DNA of 64,000 bases from Pseudomonadota bacterium (GTDB taxonomy: Bacteria > Desulfobacterota > Desulfobulbia > Desulfobulbales > Desulfurivibrionaceae), in NCBI GenBank assembly GCA_018830485.1, contig JAHJRQ010000015.1, positions 434,001 to 498,000 of the forward strand, in the 5' to 3' direction. The number at the start of each line of letters is the position of its first letter. Position 1 is the stretch's first letter. Below, in pieces: positions 48,615 to 56,454 of this stretch. The notes beneath the pieces are model-generated. The model had not been told where the DNA came from. It was given only the letters and a program-made list of their open reading frames with translations, and did no database searches. A program made the position numbers and the translations under genes.

Positions 48615-50228
48615 ATGGCCCCTGAATCCCGCCAGCACAAAAAAATCAACAATGTCTGGATGCTGACCCGCGAGTATGACGGCCTGGCCGGGGCCGGCGG
48701 GGTCAAGGATGTGGCCCGGCAACTGGCCGAGGCCCTGGCGCGCTCGGGCCGCAAGGTCAGCGTGGTCCTGCCGCTCTACGGCTTCATGGACCCTGGGCAA
48801 CTGGGCTTTGCCCAACTGGATCTGGGGTTTGACCTCGACATGGACTATGCCGGGGAGCCGCGCCGGGAATATGTGCGGATCTTTTTCAAAACAACACTCC
48901 CGGCGGCTAAAAAAGGAACGCTTGCCATCTACCTGATCGACGCGGCCCGCTATCTGGAAAAAAAGAGCGTTTACACCTACACCGCCGAGGACGAAGCCCT
49001 GGACCCGTTTCACCACCAGGGTTCCGGCCATTTCGACTATTTCGCCATGAACGTTCTGCTGCAAAAGGCGGCGGCGGCCCTGATTATCCGCTTGGACCAA
49101 CGCCCCGATATCATCCACTGCCACGACGGCCACACCGCCATCCTCCCGGCCATGCTTCGCGAAACGGAAGGTTGGCGCCATTACTTCGCCGAAACCGGCT
49201 GCGTGGTGACCATCCACAACGCCGGGACCGGCTACCATCAGGAGGTGGGCGACCTGCCCTTTGCCGAGGCGATCACCGGGTTGCCAAGCTCCCTGATCAC
49301 CGCCAATCTGCTGGACGGCAAATTCGACCCCTTTCTCGCCGCCTCGCCCTATGCGGTGATGAACACGGTGAGCGAAAACTATGCCCGGGAGCTGCGGGAA
49401 ACCGACGACGACGCGCTGACCGGCATGCTCGGCCACCGGCTCCTGGCCCGGGGCGTGGTGCTCAAGGGCGTGACCAACGGCATCAACCCGGCGGACTTTG
49501 ACCCGGCCAAGCCAAAACCCCTGGGCCTGGCCGCCGCTTTCAACCCCGCCACCGGCGATCTGGCGGGCAAGGCGAAATGCCGCCGGAGCCTGCTCAAGGA
49601 TCTGGCCGGGCACCGCCTCAAAACGGTTCGCCAGACCGGCACCCTGGACGACCGCTCCGGCATCCCGCTGTTCACCTTTGTCGGCCGCTTTTCCGCCCAA
49701 AAGGGGGTGGACAAGCTGCTGGGGGCGCTGGAAACCCTGCTGCCCCTGGACCAGAATTTCCAGGTCCTGATCCAGGGCTCGGGCAGCAAGGAGATCGAGA
49801 CGGCCCTGGCCGGGCTGGCCGCTTCCCGCAAAAACCAGGGCCGCATCTGCCTGCTGCGCGGCTACGACCAGCAGCTTGCCAACCGCATCTACGCCGCAGG
49901 GGATTTTTTTCTCATCCCCTCCCGCTACGAGCCCTGCGGCCTTACCGACTATATCGCCCAGCTCTTCGGCAACCTGCCCATCGTCCACCACATCGGCGGG
50001 TTGGTCAAGGTGAGGGACGGGGAAACCGGCTTTGCCTATCCGGAGCACAAATCCGCCGCCCTGATGGGCGCCATGCAGAAAGCGATGCAGACCTTCCGGG
50101 ACAATCCCCACAAAATCCTGGCCATGCAGCAGGCCGCCATCAGGACCATCCACGACGCCTGCACCTGGGATAAAGTGCTGGTCCATTATTTAGCGCTTTA
50201 TCGCGAGGCGGTTTCGCAGGTACAATAA
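48615..50228 (+). CDS. glgA: glycogen/starch synthase-like glycosyltransferase (GT5)
   Basis: A 537-residue GT-B enzyme with the N-terminal starch-synthase catalytic domain (DIIHCHDGHTAILPAML, then YHQEVG..., VMNTVSENYAREL and VTNGINPADFDP) and the C-terminal GT1-type domain (FTFVGRFSAQKGVDKLL; IPSRYEPCGLTDYIAQLFGNLPIVHHIGGL). These enzymes extend alpha-1,4-glucans from ADP- or UDP-glucose. The KTGGL motif that binds the nucleotide sugar in bacterial GlgA appears as GAGGV (about residues 26-30), so the lysine is missing; donor or acceptor may differ. ATG 48615 has GGAG. Other glg genes are not nearby. Confidence 0.82.
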   Translation: MAPESRQHKKINNVWMLTREYDGLAGAGGVKDVARQLAEALARSGRKVSVVLPLYGFMDPGQLGFAQLDLGFDLDMDYAGEPRREYVRIFFKTTLPAAKKGTLAIYLIDAARYLEKKSVYTYTAEDEALDPFHHQGSGHFDYFAMNVLLQKAAAALIIRLDQRPDIIHCHDGHTAILPAMLRETEGWRHYFAETGCVVTIHNAGTGYHQEVGDLPFAEAITGLPSSLITANLLDGKFDPFLAASPYAVMNTVSENYARELRETDDDALTGMLGHRLLARGVVLKGVTNGINPADFDPAKPKPLGLAAAFNPATGDLAGKAKCRRSLLKDLAGHRLKTVRQTGTLDDRSGIPLFTFVGRFSAQKGVDKLLGALETLLPLDQNFQVLIQGSGSKEIETALAGLAASRKNQGRICLLRGYDQQLANRIYAAGDFFLIPSRYEPCGLTDYIAQLFGNLPIVHHIGGLVKVRDGETGFAYPEHKSAALMGAMQKAMQTFRDNPHKILAMQQAAIRTIHDACTWDKVLVHYLALYREAVSQVQ

Positions 50229-50453: not shown

Positions 50454-51458
50454 ATGACGATACGCATAGGCATCAACGGTTTTGGCCGCATCGGCCGCAA
50501 CATCTTTCGCGCCATCGATAAAGATCCGCTCTTTGGTGATATCGAAGTCGTCGCCATCAACGACCTGACCAACAACGCCACCCTGGCCCATCTGCTCAAG
50601 TACGACTCGATCATGGGAGTGTACGATAAAAGCGTGACCCCCTCCGAGGACGGCATTGTGGTCAACGGCCGCCTGGTTAAAATCTTCAATCACCGCAATC
50701 CCGCCGACATTCCCTGGGGCAGGCTTGGAGTCGAGTACGTGGTCGAATCCACCGGTCTTTTCACCGATGCGGACAAGGCGGCCATGCACCTTGAAGCCGG
50801 CGCCAAGAAGGTGGTGATCTCCGCCCCGGCCAAGGGCAAGGTCAAAACCATCGTCATGGGGGTCAACGAAGACGAGTACAACCCCACGGAAGACCACATT
50901 ATCTCCAACGCCTCCTGCACCACCAACTGCCTGGCCCCCATGGTCAAGGTCATCCTCGACCGCTTCGGCATCAAGACCGGGTTGATGACCACGGTCCACT
51001 CCTATACCAACGACCAGTGCATCCTGGATTTTCCGCACAGCGACCTGCGCCGCGCCCGGGCCGGGGCGCTCTCCATGATCCCCACCAAAACCGGAGCCGC
51101 GGCCGCCGTCTCCCTGGTGATCCCCGAGCTGAAAGGCAAGTTCGACGGCTTGGCCGTGCGGGTGCCCACCCCCAACGTCTCCCTGGTGGACGCGGTCATG
51201 GAGGTGGAACGGCCGACCACGGTGCCGGAGGTGAACCAGGCCCTTAAAGAAGCCGCCAACCGGTATCTGGGCTATTCGGAAGAGCCCCTGGTCTCCATCG
51301 ACTACCAGGGCAACCCGCACTCCTCGGTAGTGGACGCCCTGTCCACCAAGGTTATCGGCACCTCGGTCAAGGTGCTCTCCTGGTACGACAACGAATGGGG
51401 CTACTCCAACCGGGTGCTGGATTTGATTTTGATGATGGAGAGTCAGAAGCCGCTGTAA
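50454..51458 (+). CDS. gap: glyceraldehyde-3-phosphate dehydrogenase, type I
   Basis: A 334-residue NAD(P)-dependent enzyme of glycolysis and gluconeogenesis. It opens IRIGINGFGRIGRNIFRAI with the Rossmann glycines and has the catalytic cysteine in SNASCTTNCLAPM (about 150), the partner His in VHSYTNDQ and the C-terminal SWYDNEWGYSNR. ATG 50454 has an AAGGAG site and directly follows the 131-bp element. Confidence 0.97.
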   Translation: MTIRIGINGFGRIGRNIFRAIDKDPLFGDIEVVAINDLTNNATLAHLLKYDSIMGVYDKSVTPSEDGIVVNGRLVKIFNHRNPADIPWGRLGVEYVVESTGLFTDADKAAMHLEAGAKKVVISAPAKGKVKTIVMGVNEDEYNPTEDHIISNASCTTNCLAPMVKVILDRFGIKTGLMTTVHSYTNDQCILDFPHSDLRRARAGALSMIPTKTGAAAAVSLVIPELKGKFDGLAVRVPTPNVSLVDAVMEVERPTTVPEVNQALKEAANRYLGYSEEPLVSIDYQGNPHSSVVDALSTKVIGTSVKVLSWYDNEWGYSNRVLDLILMMESQKPL

Positions 51459-51784
51459 GGACGGAACGGACCTGGGAATCTGGATATCATGCCCGGCTGG
51501 GTGATATCCAGGAGCCGGCAGGTCGGGTAGAGCACAGCGAAACCAGGCGCAAACAACTCCAGCGCGGAAGGCAAATCATGCTGTACCGGCGCGGCGACGA
51601 AACCGGTGCATGACACCCGCGACCCGCCATACGCATACAAAGGCAAAGCCACCGTCATCCCGTCGGTGACCGTGGATTTCTGCCCGGCCTGCTGTGAAGT
51701 TGTCCTTGGGGCCGCCGACTCGGCACGCTCCGGCACGGCGCCGCTGGAGTTCAACAAGCAGGTAAAAACCGAAGGCTGAACGGC
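51459..51784. other. 326-bp gap between gap and the PPDK-like gene
   Basis: I find no credible gene, and no strong hairpin apart from GGATATCA...TGATATCC (about 51481-51509), which forms an 8-bp stem. An antisense open frame crosses it but is only the continuation of a shadow frame of the next gene. Confidence 0.4.
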
Positions 51785-54700
51785 ATGACCACCGACCATA
51801 CCCCGCCGGAACTCGAATCGGACGCCCTCAAGGCCAACCTCCTTGAAACCGCGGTGGATTCGGTGACCATCGATGAGGCGCTGCTGCCGCTCCTTGAGAT
51901 CGTCAACAACTACCGGGGGATAAGCACAACCCTGGAAACCCTGCTCTATGAGGTCAGCCATCCGTTCCGCAACTGGAAGATGATCCTGCCCCGGCTCCGT
52001 TCCTTTGTTCTCAAAAATATCGACCATTATTTCCGGCACGAGCAGGGGCCCCAGGCCTTCCCCCTCTTCTGCGGAATATTCCTCAAGGCGGTGGAGGATT
52101 GCCGCAAGAACGAACCGCTGCTGGCCACGGCCATGGAAGGGTTGCTGGCCTACCTGGACAAACAGACCTCCCTGCTTGCCGACGACAGCCTGCCGCGCTA
52201 TCAAACCGCCCTGGCTGCGTGTTTTGAGCGCCTTCGCGCGCTGGACGACGAGGTGCTGCTCTTTTTGGTCCAGGGCCACCATCCCCTGGGCAAGATCCTG
52301 GCCCGGCTGCACGGGTTGTGCCTTGCCGCTCCGGGCTGCAGCGGCGAGACAAGCGCGGCCCGCCTTCTGCAGCGGGTTCTGACCCTCAACTACCGCTATT
52401 GGCTGAAGGAAGAAGACCCCCTCGCCTGGTTTACCGCGCAATGCGGCGATCTCTGCATGGGCTGGCGCTCCGGCACCCTGTTCAACGCCATTTCCCATCA
52501 ACGGCTGAACGAACATCTCGCCGCCGTCACCCAGCTTGATCCGGCAGCCCCCGGCGCTTTGGGCGCCATGCTTGCCCTGCCCAACCACATGGACATCATC
52601 CGCCTCTACAAAGAGGCGCCGGACCGGCTCGGAGAGGAGATCGCCACCGAAGAACTGGCCATGGACCGCTTTGCCGAGAACCGCAAGCTGCTCTTTCTCT
52701 TCCGGATCATGGACACTGCGGGGCTGGGACTGATCCACGAGGAAACCCTGCGCGAGATCAACCGCAGCCTGGTCCAGCTCATCCGCCAGCAAACCTTCGA
52801 GGAGATCGAGCGCTTCCTGCTCACCACCCTGACGCTCCTCAAGGCCAATGTCAAAAAATACCCGCACACCTCGCTGCAATGCATCCAGGTTCTGGGAAGC
52901 GAGGTGTTCCATCGCGGCAACAGCCGTCTGGTGGAAACCTTTCTCTTCGAGACGGTGCGCTTCGGCTTCCAGTACGCCAACTTTCAGGGGCTCAACGACG
53001 ACTGGCAGCCCATCACCAACCCGGCCCATCTGGACAACATCCGGGTCTGGCTCAGCCTGATCATGCAGGAGCCGAAATGGTGCTCCACCCTGTTTTCCGC
53101 CCTGATCATCAATCTCAAGCTCTCGGGCACCTGCGTCAAGGATACCGACCTCTTCCAGCGCGACATCACCCAGCTTTTGAACCACCCCATCGAGCCCATC
53201 TACAACCTGGCCAAGCAGTTCACCAAATTGATGCCGGTTTTCTTCAATGAAATCGGGGCGGAAGGGCAGCTCCGCGATGTGTCCACCGAACTCGACGAGA
53301 TGCACCGCCGCAAGGACCGGCTCATCCATTTCCTGCGCAAGCAGAGCCATGTGGAGTCGAGCAACCTGATCGTCGATTTCATCGAAGCGATCTTTCGTTT
53401 CTGGCAGACCCTGGACAAAGCCGCCCTGGCGCCCTACCTGCCCGAGGAGGTGCTCGCGGAGGTTTCGAACCAGGGGCTGTTTGTCGAGGACCTCCACACC
53501 CTGATGGGCCGCGTGCTGGGCCATGATAGCCCCATCTCCCGGATCGAGGAGCTGCTGACCTGGGACGACCACCGCCGCGACACCTGGCTGGCCGGACAGC
53601 AGGGGATTAAATCCGAAGAGATCCGCCGTTTCACCCTGATGGTCGAGATGTACCAACTCTGCCACCAGAAGTACAACCTCGGCGTGCAGGAGATCCGGCA
53701 ACAGCTCCATCTCGCGGCCAAAAGCGGTTTTCCGGAAATGGAACAGTTGCTGGGCGATCTGGAGATCTGCGACACCTTCCAGTGCCTGGAGGCGCTGCTC
53801 GACACCCTGGAGAGCCTCAAGGAAACCATCCAGAGCCCGGAGAAATTCGAGGCCAAGGAGGATATCTACTACAAGCGCCACATCGCCGTGGACATCCCCT
53901 CGGTCTACGGCCGCTACCGGGAGAAGAAATTCGACGCCCTCGGCCTCACCTTCCGCTTGGAAAACCTGGCCAACGTCTATCTGGAAAAACTGCCCGAAAC
54001 CGTCAACCTCGCCTTCATCACCCGGGCCACCTTCATCCGGATCATCAAATGTCTGCGCCTTTACCTGCGGGCCCTGAAGATCGACGGCATCACCAGCCGG
54101 CGGCTGGAAACCTACATGTCGCTCCTGACCAGCTCGTTTAACATCAAGCGCTTCTCCTACACCCAGTACCTCGACATCTTCCGGGGGTTCACCGAGGGGG
54201 TGAAGGATATCATCTACACCTATTACACCAACATCCACGAAAACAACCTCTCCATCATCATCCCCAAGATCGGCGAGGCCAACCTGCTGCCCAAACACCG
54301 CTCGCTCTGGGAGCCTGACGATCTTCCGGCCAGCATCCTGAGGCTTTCCGAAACCTTCATGCGGGATCTCATCGCCACCACCTTCGGCCTCCAGCATCTG
54401 GACAACTTCATCACCCGCATCTACCAGACCCTGGAGCACCAGAAAGAGATCCTGAGCGAAGAGGATCTCGATCTGCTGATGACCTACAACCCGGACCGGG
54501 CGGTGAGCAGCCTGCACCTCAAGAACCACCACACCAATAACCTGATCCTCTTGGGCAACAAAGGCTTCAATCTCACCGTGCTGGCCACGGACGACAAACC
54601 CGTGCCCCCGGGCTTTATCATCACCACCGAGATCTTCCGCTGCTGGCCGGTGATCAAGGGATTTTACAAAGCCCGCGACGAGTTCATGGGCCAGGTCAAA

Positions 54701-56056
54701 AAATCCCTGGCCGAGATGGAAAAAAATACCGGCCGGCGCTTCGGCGATCCGGCCAACCCCCTGCTCCTTTCCGTGCGCAGCGGCGCGGCGATCTCCATGC
54801 CGGGAATGATGGCCACCATCCACAATGTGGGACTCAACGAGGAGATCAGCCAGGGGTTTGCCGGATCATCGGGCCAGGACTATCCCCCATCCTGCCAGAT
54901 CGACTATCTGGCCTGGGACAATTACCGACGCTTTCTCCAGTCCTGGGCCATGGCCGAAGGCATGGAGCGCGAGGGTTTCCAGGCCCTGATGAACGAGGCC
55001 AAGAACCGTTACGGCATCGCGGTGAAAAAAGATTTTTCCGCATCCCAGATGCGGGAGCTGGCCCTGGAGTATCAGGAAAAGATCCGGAAGGCCGGCATCT
55101 GTATTCCGGCCGATCCCTGGCAGCAGCTCACCGGCGCGGTGGAGCTGGTGCTCAACTCCTGGTATGCGCAAAAAACCATGGAATACCGTGGGTTGATGGA
55201 TGTTTCCGAGGCCTGGGGCACGGCGGTCATCGTCCAGGCCATGGTGTACGGCAACCTGGGGCCGGAATCGGGCAGCGGCGTGCTCTTCACCGCCCATCCC
55301 TACCGCAAGGTGAGCCGGGTGGCCCTGTGGGGCGACTACGCCACCGGCGACCAGGGCGAGGATATCGTCAGCGGCCTGGTCAAAACCCAGCCCATCTCGG
55401 TGGAACAGGCGGAGCTGGACGGCCGGCCCGAGGAAAACAGCCTGGAGAGACGGTTTCCCAAGGTGTACGAACGATTGCTCGCCATCGCCCGGGAGCTGGT
55501 CTATGAAAAACGCTGGAACCCCCAGGAGATCGAATTCACCTTTGAAGGTCCGGAGGAAGAGAACCTCTTTCTCCTCCAGACCAGGGACATGATCACCATC
55601 AAGAAGCGGGAAAAATTCGCGGTGTTCACCGAGGGCAAGGCGCTGGACAAGGCCTTGCTCGGCTTCGGCATCGGTGTATCCGGCAGCGCCCTCTCGGGCC
55701 GCGCCGTGTTCTCCGCCGCCAATATCAGGCAGCTCAAGGAACAAGACCCCGCCACCCCGCTGATCCTCATCCGCCAGGACACCGTGCCCGAGGATATCAA
55801 GGAGATCGCCATGGCCGAGGGATTGCTCACCGCGCGCGGGGGGCAGACCTCCCATGCGGCGGTGGTCACCATCCGTCTGGAAAAAACCTGTGTGGTGGGC
55901 TGCAATGCTTTGAAGGTGTACGAGGCGGAGGAGCGCTGCGAGATCAGCGGACGCGAGATCCGTTTCGGCGATGCGATCAGCATCGACGGGCGCAAGGGGA
56001 TATTTCTGCTGGGCAGCCATCCCGTGCGGGAAGAGGTGCAGATCCTGCCGCTCTAG
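51785..56056 (+). CDS. PPDK-like phosphotransferase with a very large unassigned N-terminal region
   Basis: A 1423-residue protein. The last third is related to pyruvate phosphate dikinase: the ATP-binding domain starts near 915 (LILLGNKGFNLTVL, PVPPGFIITTE, LLLSVRSGAAISMPGMM) and is followed by the swivelling phosphohistidine domain (LLTARGGQTSHAAVVTIRLEKTCVVGC; His about 1356). The C-terminal PEP/pyruvate-binding barrel is absent, so the phosphoryl group must go to a different acceptor, as in rifampin phosphotransferases or glucan dikinases. The first 900 residues look mostly helical, with no motif I can name. Its stop overlaps the convergent response regulator's stop. gap and glgA upstream hint at sugar metabolism. 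Confidence 0.8.
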   Translation: MTTDHTPPELESDALKANLLETAVDSVTIDEALLPLLEIVNNYRGISTTLETLLYEVSHPFRNWKMILPRLRSFVLKNIDHYFRHEQGPQAFPLFCGIFLKAVEDCRKNEPLLATAMEGLLAYLDKQTSLLADDSLPRYQTALAACFERLRALDDEVLLFLVQGHHPLGKILARLHGLCLAAPGCSGETSAARLLQRVLTLNYRYWLKEEDPLAWFTAQCGDLCMGWRSGTLFNAISHQRLNEHLAAVTQLDPAAPGALGAMLALPNHMDIIRLYKEAPDRLGEEIATEELAMDRFAENRKLLFLFRIMDTAGLGLIHEETLREINRSLVQLIRQQTFEEIERFLLTTLTLLKANVKKYPHTSLQCIQVLGSEVFHRGNSRLVETFLFETVRFGFQYANFQGLNDDWQPITNPAHLDNIRVWLSLIMQEPKWCSTLFSALIINLKLSGTCVKDTDLFQRDITQLLNHPIEPIYNLAKQFTKLMPVFFNEIGAEGQLRDVSTELDEMHRRKDRLIHFLRKQSHVESSNLIVDFIEAIFRFWQTLDKAALAPYLPEEVLAEVSNQGLFVEDLHTLMGRVLGHDSPISRIEELLTWDDHRRDTWLAGQQGIKSEEIRRFTLMVEMYQLCHQKYNLGVQEIRQQLHLAAKSGFPEMEQLLGDLEICDTFQCLEALLDTLESLKETIQSPEKFEAKEDIYYKRHIAVDIPSVYGRYREKKFDALGLTFRLENLANVYLEKLPETVNLAFITRATFIRIIKCLRLYLRALKIDGITSRRLETYMSLLTSSFNIKRFSYTQYLDIFRGFTEGVKDIIYTYYTNIHENNLSIIIPKIGEANLLPKHRSLWEPDDLPASILRLSETFMRDLIATTFGLQHLDNFITRIYQTLEHQKEILSEEDLDLLMTYNPDRAVSSLHLKNHHTNNLILLGNKGFNLTVLATDDKPVPPGFIITTEIFRCWPVIKGFYKARDEFMGQVKKSLAEMEKNTGRRFGDPANPLLLSVRSGAAISMPGMMATIHNVGLNEEISQGFAGSSGQDYPPSCQIDYLAWDNYRRFLQSWAMAEGMEREGFQALMNEAKNRYGIAVKKDFSASQMRELALEYQEKIRKAGICIPADPWQQLTGAVELVLNSWYAQKTMEYRGLMDVSEAWGTAVIVQAMVYGNLGPESGSGVLFTAHPYRKVSRVALWGDYATGDQGEDIVSGLVKTQPISVEQAELDGRPEENSLERRFPKVYERLLAIARELVYEKRWNPQEIEFTFEGPEEENLFLLQTRDMITIKKREKFAVFTEGKALDKALLGFGIGVSGSALSGRAVFSAANIRQLKEQDPATPLILIRQDTVPEDIKEIAMAEGLLTARGGQTSHAAVVTIRLEKTCVVGCNALKVYEAEERCEISGREIRFGDAISIDGRKGIFLLGSHPVREEVQILPL

Positions 56057-56454
56057 GAGAGTTTTTTGACTTTCTTGTGCTGGCGGTGATACCCGAGCAC
56101 GGTTTCGGCCAGGGCCTTTGCCTGAAAGGGCTTGAGCACATAGCCCTGGATGCCGAGCTTGAGGCAGGCCAAGACCTCCTGCTTGTCGGCGACGGAACTG
56201 ACCATGATCACGGTGGTGGCCGTGTCCTTCAGGGTCTGCCGGATGGTCTTGAGGGCGGTGAAGCCATTCATGAGCGGCATCATGATATCCATCAACAGGA
56301 TATCGGGCTGCCAACTTTTGAAAACCGCCAACGCCTCTTCGCCGTCGGCGGCCAGCCGGATTTCAAACTGCTCCCCGTCCCGGAAGGCGATCTGGAAAAG
56401 CTGCCGGGTGACCTCTTCGTCTTCGGCAATCAGAATTTTCAGTTTTTCAGCCAT
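56053..56454 (-). CDS. stand-alone response regulator receiver
   Basis: A 133-residue CheY-like protein: KILIAEDEEVTRQLF, phospho-acceptor Asp in ILLMDIMMPLMNG, Ser pair in VIMVSSVADK, Lys in GYVLKPFQAK. There is no output domain; a basic tail (HRQHKKVKKLS) ends the protein. It is tail-to-tail with the PPDK-like gene with overlapping stops. The kinase is unknown. Confidence 0.87.
   Translation of the reverse strand: MAEKLKILIAEDEEVTRQLFQIAFRDGEQFEIRLAADGEEALAVFKSWQPDILLMDIMMPLMNGFTALKTIRQTLKDTATTVIMVSSVADKQEVLACLKLGIQGYVLKPFQAKALAETVLGYHRQHKKVKKLS

Follow-up and report, generated by a model that had tools for sequence, protein, structure and literature searches.

A giant, barrel-less relative of pyruvate, phosphate dikinase and its genomic link to a second glyceraldehyde-3-phosphate dehydrogenase in Desulfobacterota

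What is the function of a protein whose best-scoring match is pyruvate, phosphate dikinase (PPDK), an enzyme that it cannot be, and whose gene is always accompanied by that of a second glyceraldehyde-3-phosphate dehydrogenase (GAPDH)? The question is raised by a gene in a 64,000-nucleotide stretch of DNA from a bacterium of the Desulfobulbales (Desulfobacterota; assembly GCA_018830485.1, contig JAHJRQ010000015.1, positions 434,001 to 498,000 of the forward strand), referred to here as the window. The gene lies at 51785..56056 on the + strand, and we use the name PPDKL for the PPDK-like protein that it encodes. PPDKL is a previously undescribed, giant PPDK relative that has lost the phosphoenolpyruvate (PEP)/pyruvate barrel and gained a 900-residue helical region; no paper describing the family was found in the open literature. 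Central carbon metabolism is, as far as we are aware, assumed to be fully catalogued. PPDKL occurs throughout much of a phylum of global importance, among whose members are sulfate reducers, sulfur-cycle bacteria and cable bacteria. We propose, with a probability of roughly 0.55, that it is a PPDK-derived, ATP-driven histidine phosphotransferase in which an N-terminal acceptor or docking region takes the place of the barrel, and that it serves specifically the second GAPDH (GAPDH2, encoded by gap2), within the triose-phosphate part of gluconeogenesis. Together, PPDKL and gap2 suggest that sugar synthesis in these bacteria involves a phosphate-transfer step or switch, powered by ATP, that has gone unrecognised.

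Domain make-up of PPDKL

The gene and its parts are as follows.

51785..56056, + strand: PPDKL, 1423 amino acids, ATG start (open reading frame; family members in relatives)
51785..54499, + strand: N-terminal helical region, residues 1-905, no known family (Pfam, Protein Data Bank (PDB) search, AlphaFold2 (AF2) model)
52955..53374, + strand: patch A, residues 391-530, with invariant W407, N412, H415, N418, D453, D455, K477, Q478, E493, R497, D504, E505, R509, R518, K519, H522 and E524
53858..53962, + strand: patch B, residues 692-726, with E692, K697, R698, H699, the motif IPSxYGxYxExKF, R724 and E726; low predicted local distance difference test score (pLDDT) in both models
54545..55588, + strand: PPDK-type ATP-grasp domain, residues 921-1268, with K926, R998, E1250, Q1265 and R1267 invariant (Pfam, NCBIfam, phmmer, Foldseek, family alignment)
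55655..56017, + strand: swivelling phosphohistidine domain, residues 1291-1411 (Pfam, phmmer, Foldseek)
55853..55855, + strand: codon of His1357 (GGQTSHA), the phosphorylated histidine by alignment with the catalytic His of PPDK; invariant

A Pfam scan of the whole of PPDKL returned two domains only: PPDK_N at residues 966-1276 (E 4.5e-28) and, at 1326-1405 (E 2.9e-16), the mobile phosphohistidine domain PEP-utilizers. The PEP/pyruvate barrel PF02896 was not found. When the PDB was searched with phmmer, residues 921-1411 aligned to PPDK residues 16/17-508/509 (E 1e-71), so the match stops at the start of the PPDK barrel. Foldseek matched the predicted model of residues 224-1423 to PPDK 1kbl (E 1.9e-33), and the ATP-grasp and swivelling phosphohistidine domains that PPDKL shares with PPDK are about 31-33% identical in structure alignment. 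In contrast to PPDK, PPDKL has no barrel and carries a 905-residue N-terminal region, and although its top NCBIfam model was pyruvate, phosphate dikinase (TIGR01828), it scored 366.5 bits against a cut-off of 843. For NF004531, a model that presumably includes short PPDK-like proteins, the score was 285.7 bits against a cut-off of 456. An earlier note, made from the sequence alone, had described a 1423-residue PPDK-like frame with C-terminal ATP-binding and phosphohistidine domains and no PEP/pyruvate barrel, and these searches bear it out on each point. The frame is not a chance one, since full-length relatives occur within and beyond Desulfobulbales. As the protein has no barrel, and the sole PEP-barrel match in the window's genome belongs to a complete 819-residue PEP synthase, PPDKL is not an ordinary PPDK.

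Residues K926, R998, E1250, Q1265, R1267 and H1357 were invariant in all family members covering them, and position 1357 was His in 58 of the 58 members that reach it. We take the PPDK equivalents of these six residues to be K22, R92, E323, Q335, R337 and H455; the equivalence was established by phmmer alignment for K926, R998 and H1357 and by motif for E1250, Q1265 and R1267. Judged by these residues, the phosphohistidine site is intact and looks functional, and PPDKL appears to possess what is required to form phosphohistidine from ATP. A non-functional phosphohistidine, which the earlier note had named as an outcome that would count against it, is not what the alignment of the 58 members indicates.

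Residues 1-905 matched no sequence family in Pfam, NCBIfam or the PDB (best PDB sequence match E 0.15), and Pfam searches of this region in 26 homologues gave chance-level matches in single sequences only. The AF2 model of the region, calculated with 58 aligned homologues as input, was an all-helical solenoid, with a mean pLDDT of 79 and a predicted template modelling score of 0.62. No known fold could be assigned: the best Foldseek match had an E of 1.4e-3, and VIA-align reached at best a Z of 10.3 (217 residues, 6.8 Å), which its own note puts below the chance level for helical models. The weak structural matches were all to HEAT-like proteins, karyopherin and cohesin-SA2 among them, and they do not show the predicted N-terminal fold to be new. 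The description of this part as about 900 unassigned, largely helical residues was thus accurate, and neither profile searches nor structure prediction turned up the known N-terminal domain that would have spoken against the earlier note.

Conservation was judged from a 59-sequence family alignment reaching down to 39% identity. Residues 391-530 (patch A) and 692-726 (patch B) were conserved as strongly as the catalytic domains, and both patches are rich in invariant Lys, Arg and His. Parts of both patches had low confidence in the AF2 model of the N-terminal region, and folding residues 224-1423 together still left the loops 405-414, 484-493 and 686-712 below a pLDDT of 50. Low confidence in conserved loops would fit an ordering upon binding of substrate or partner, by analogy with the helical acceptor domain of rifampin phosphotransferase (RPH), which is partly disordered without its substrate (PMC4844700).

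Distribution of PPDKL and its link to gap2

We surveyed 394 Desulfobacterota genomes, each at least 85% complete, and found PPDKL in 124 of them, representing 73 of 244 genera. Full-length relatives were 60-97% identical in nearly all sampled Desulfobulbales and 39-53% identical elsewhere in the phylum; a close relative at 97% is that of Desulfobulbaceae bacterium UBA2273, and members include Electrothrix cable bacteria (L078), Desulfocapsa and Desulfogranum japonicum. Among the Desulfobulbales relatives of the window's genome, 56 of 58 had a PPDKL match, counting a weak PEP-synthase-like match in G057, a genome that we do not regard as a genuine loss because its contig ends about 180 bp past gap1, the gene for the ordinary type I GAPDH. 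The two relatives without PPDKL were 60% (G017) and 89% (G018) complete. Most carriers had a single PPDKL gene. Save in broken or truncated frames, the N-terminal region was fused to the PPDK part. By alignment, PPDKL is one conserved family. No plasmid spread was seen, and a role as a defence system was dropped as PADLOC gave no match.

The exclusive genomic partner of PPDKL is gap2, which encodes a long, divergent GAPDH homologue of about 415 amino acids (332 bits against the GAPDH-I cut-off of 367). We searched for it with E values up to 1e-100, at which GAPDH1, scoring about 1e-40, is left out and the weakest accepted gap2 scored about 1e-129. Both genes were present in 124 of the 394 genomes and neither in 270, and no genome had one alone. 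The aprA gene, used as a control, overlapped partly, being found in 90 of 124 carriers but also in 71 of 270 non-carriers; on these numbers an obligate tie of PPDKL to sulfate reduction via AMP and pyrophosphate was rejected.

Outside Desulfobulbales, 92 of 106 genomes had gap2 within 4 kb of a match to the PPDKL N-terminal region: in 75 it followed downstream on the same strand, and in the remaining 17 it lay in opposite orientation. The recurring gene run there is gap1-PPDKL-gap2-pgk-tpiA-secG, and most of the loci checked that have the genes on one strand show spacings of about 0-90 bp, consistent with operons. In the opposite-strand group, a divergent one (L152, L165 and 15 other genomes), gap2 is downstream of PPDKL and 52-57% identical to the gap2 of G298. 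Genes on opposite strands share no transcript, yet gap2 and PPDKL stay together in this group.

GAPDH2 retains the catalytic Cys, His and Arg. At the position of the NAD-binding Asp of gap1 it carries NxGR, a replacement that suggests use of NADP(H). Moreover, no GAPDH other than that of gap2 was detected in G081, G116 and G261, three Desulfobacterota genomes of 100% estimated completeness. With its catalytic residues kept and no second enzyme detected in these three genomes, GAPDH2 probably performs the GAPDH reaction, presumably in the service of gluconeogenesis. Two of the three (G081, locus L148; G261, locus L158) are genomes of about 1.8 Mb, and gap2 adjoins PPDKL in both loci. Phosphoglycerate kinase (PGK) was present in 80 of 80 PPDKL carriers checked; PPDKL is therefore not a simple substitute for PGK, and this candidate role was discarded.

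G421 and its congener G437 have two PPDKL paralogues each. In G421 they lie at L154 (contig C14) and L155 (contig C64), one adjoining gap1-pgk-tpi and the other gap2, making this genome a natural test of how two GAPDHs divide their PPDKL partner.

Proposed role and alternatives

The nearest characterised analogue of PPDKL is VadK (Rv1127c) of Mycobacterium tuberculosis, a protein of about 490 amino acids that provides a true two-module precedent. For this barrel-less PPDK, Mg-ATP-dependent autophosphorylation of the homologous histidine has been measured, the His and ATP-site residues are needed in vivo, the protein interacts with the methylcitrate enzymes encoded beside its gene, and the M. 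tuberculosis genome holds no other barrel able to restore PPDK (PMC13400623). Like VadK, PPDKL is PPDK-derived, has lost the barrel while keeping its ATP and His sites, occurs in a genome without a rescuing barrel and is linked by its gene to metabolic enzymes, here those of gap1, gap2, pgk and tpi, with which an interaction may be surmised from the gene order. It differs from VadK in its 905 extra N-terminal residues, whereas VadK has no N-terminal region, is from Actinomycetota and serves the methylcitrate cycle, not GAPDH.

RPH has the domain order ATP-grasp, acceptor, His, with a dedicated acceptor domain (PMC4844700), which makes the earlier note's premise, that enzymes with only the two shared modules transfer phosphate to an antibiotic, glucan or water, a loose one. 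HpeHI is a two-component split dikinase (PMC12167813). As in RPH and HpeHI, an ATP-grasp and a phosphohistidine domain would be joined in PPDKL by a dedicated, here putative, acceptor domain that replaces the barrel. The order in PPDKL is instead N-terminal region, ATP-grasp and His, with the latter two adjacent, and structural similarity to RPH is weak (E 7e-6, 14% identity). PPDKL is closest to the PPDK branch, but it lacks the PPDK barrel and departs from RPH in domain order and from VadK in size.

In the mechanism that we propose, the ATP-grasp domain would phosphorylate His1357, as the intact PPDK residues and the VadK precedent suggest; the swivelling domain would then bring the phosphate to a basic site in the N-terminal region, formed by residues of about 391-530 and 692-726, where a client in the GAPDH2 step would receive it. 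By the logic of VadK, which interacts with the enzymes encoded beside it, the GAPDH2 step is the most likely target of PPDKL. Among possible clients we favour, tentatively, GAPDH2 itself, which might be phosphorylated, or gripped in a phosphorylation-dependent manner, so that its flux is set by ATP status. The domain make-up, the invariance of the catalytic residues and the strict co-occurrence and adjacency with gap2 are direct observations, and it is the phosphorylation, the transfer, the client and the direction of regulation that we infer. Several points weigh against this assignment. The carriers are related genomes, and adjacency and co-occurrence are not independent events; the p-value calculated for the co-occurrence takes no account of phylogeny. 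In Desulfobulbales gap2 is on another contig or far off, except at one locus (L180). G017 and G018, the two incomplete relatives mentioned above, have gap2 without PPDKL; as they also lack gap1, the locus may be unassembled or lost. Finally, the putative acceptor site in the N-terminal region is placed there by conservation only. If PPDKL regulates or feeds GAPDH2, anaerobic gluconeogenesis would have a new point of control, and PPDKL would be the second case, after VadK, of a PPDK turned to another use.

Within this scheme, the main alternative is that the acceptor is a triose-phosphate metabolite. PPDKL would then be a dikinase that transfers the His1357 phosphate to a C3 acid such as 3-phosphoglycerate and passes the acyl phosphate directly to GAPDH2, an irreversible ATP-to-AMP route at low energy charge. 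GAPDH-type enzymes pair with acyl-phosphate-making kinases (PGK-GAPDH, LysC-Asd, ArgB-ArgC and ProB-ProA), which offers a precedent, and both the strict pairing with gap2 and the resemblance of the invariant N-terminal Lys/Arg/His clusters to a phosphate-binding site would be in keeping with this route. The same holds for the conserved low-confidence loops, which recall the substrate-free RPH acceptor domain (PMC4844700). PGK was found in all 80 carriers checked, however, even those with gap2 only, which would make the step superfluous unless the energetics called for it. Nor do we know of any PPDK-family enzyme that forms an acyl phosphate, and we consider the route unlikely. Still less likely is its extension to a one-way gluconeogenic module, in which ATP is converted to AMP, an acyl-phosphate C3 intermediate forms on the N-terminal region and GAPDH2 reduces it, so that anaerobes whose energy charge is low avoid the unfavourable PGK step. 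PPDKL might also be an ATP/AMP-sensing scaffold, its phosphohistidine cycle driving a change in shape that assembles the products of gap1, gap2, pgk and tpi with no net transfer of phosphate. Gene runs with four triose-phosphate enzymes and the HEAT- and karyopherin-like solenoid matches, all of them weak, would suit such a role, but helical models often give matches of this Z and the patch residues resemble a reactive site more than a docking surface, making a scaffold improbable.

The earlier note had placed the binding of an acceptor, perhaps a polymer, in the N-terminal region, and had pointed to the glgA-like and gap genes just upstream. Its acceptor site gains from the two conserved, active-site-like patches; the polymer is not supported. 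A glucan (glycogen) dikinase like plant GWD or PWD, with the N-terminal region binding glycogen, would accord with glgA lying two genes upstream in the window and many Desulfobulbales, and glucan dikinases also employ a phosphohistidine domain. GWD is likewise a large protein with an N-terminal extra region and dikinase modules. However, the glgA linkage is confined to Desulfobulbales and absent from the loci fetched outside the order, and being lineage-specific it does not support a glucan acceptor. A GT5 glycogen/starch synthase match was missing in 8 of 80 carriers, single-contig and near-complete genomes included, Pfam found no carbohydrate-binding module in PPDKL, and the exclusive genomic partner is gap2, not a gene of glucan metabolism; we regard a glucan dikinase as very unlikely. 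That PPDKL teams up with a barrel from another protein to make an ordinary PPDK is scarcely credible and, for the window's genome, largely refuted: although split dikinases such as HpeHI exist (PMC12167813), the genome's single barrel match is inside the complete PEP synthase, there is no HPr match, and PPDKL reaches 366 bits against the PPDK cut-off of 843. The ancient, exclusive link is to GAPDH, to gap1 upstream and above all to gap2; of the two neighbours noted earlier, gap1, to which the earlier note attached no weight, is tied to PPDKL in Desulfobulbales and many other Desulfobacterota, and glgA in Desulfobulbales alone.

Gene neighbourhood

The genes around PPDKL in the window are listed below.

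48615..50228, + strand: glgA-like glycogen synthase; linkage to PPDKL confined to Desulfobulbales
50454..51458, + strand: gap1, ordinary type I GAPDH (TIGR01534, 430 bits against a cut-off of 367); conserved upstream neighbour in Desulfobulbales and many other Desulfobacterota
51609-51779, + strand: MqsA remnant, a 56-codon frame (PF15731, E 4.8e-14, 53 bits against a cut-off of 30) covering half of the model, its N-terminal part
56053-56454, - strand: single-domain response regulator, convergent, its stop overlapping the PPDKL stop; position kept only in the window's own genus

The order in the window is aroK-aroC-glgA-gap-PPDKL, and the same run recurs across Desulfobulbales. The window's genome has gap2-rimI-pgk-tpi-secG on a separate contig (C8, locus L178). 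At L180 (G034), also of the Desulfobulbales, the run is gap1-PPDKL-gap2-rimI-pgk-tpi-secG, an arrangement that looks ancestral.

Beyond Desulfobulbales, hpf, rapZ, a gene for an EIIA-Man-like protein and rimI often precede the gap1-PPDKL run; hpf-rapZ-EIIA(Man), mostly with rimI, was seen upstream of gap1-PPDKL in many families, at L147, L149, L154, L156, L161 and L164. A phosphotransferase-system or HPr-type acceptor was dropped for the window's genome, which had no HPr match and no enzyme I. The HPr search gave no match in this genome (G000) and in 13 of 14 genomes searched, and the EIIA-like protein may be without an obvious donor in some relatives.

The interval between gap1 and PPDKL in the window measures 327 bp and holds the decayed MqsA-like antitoxin fragment, which seems to have been inserted within an otherwise conserved gene pair.

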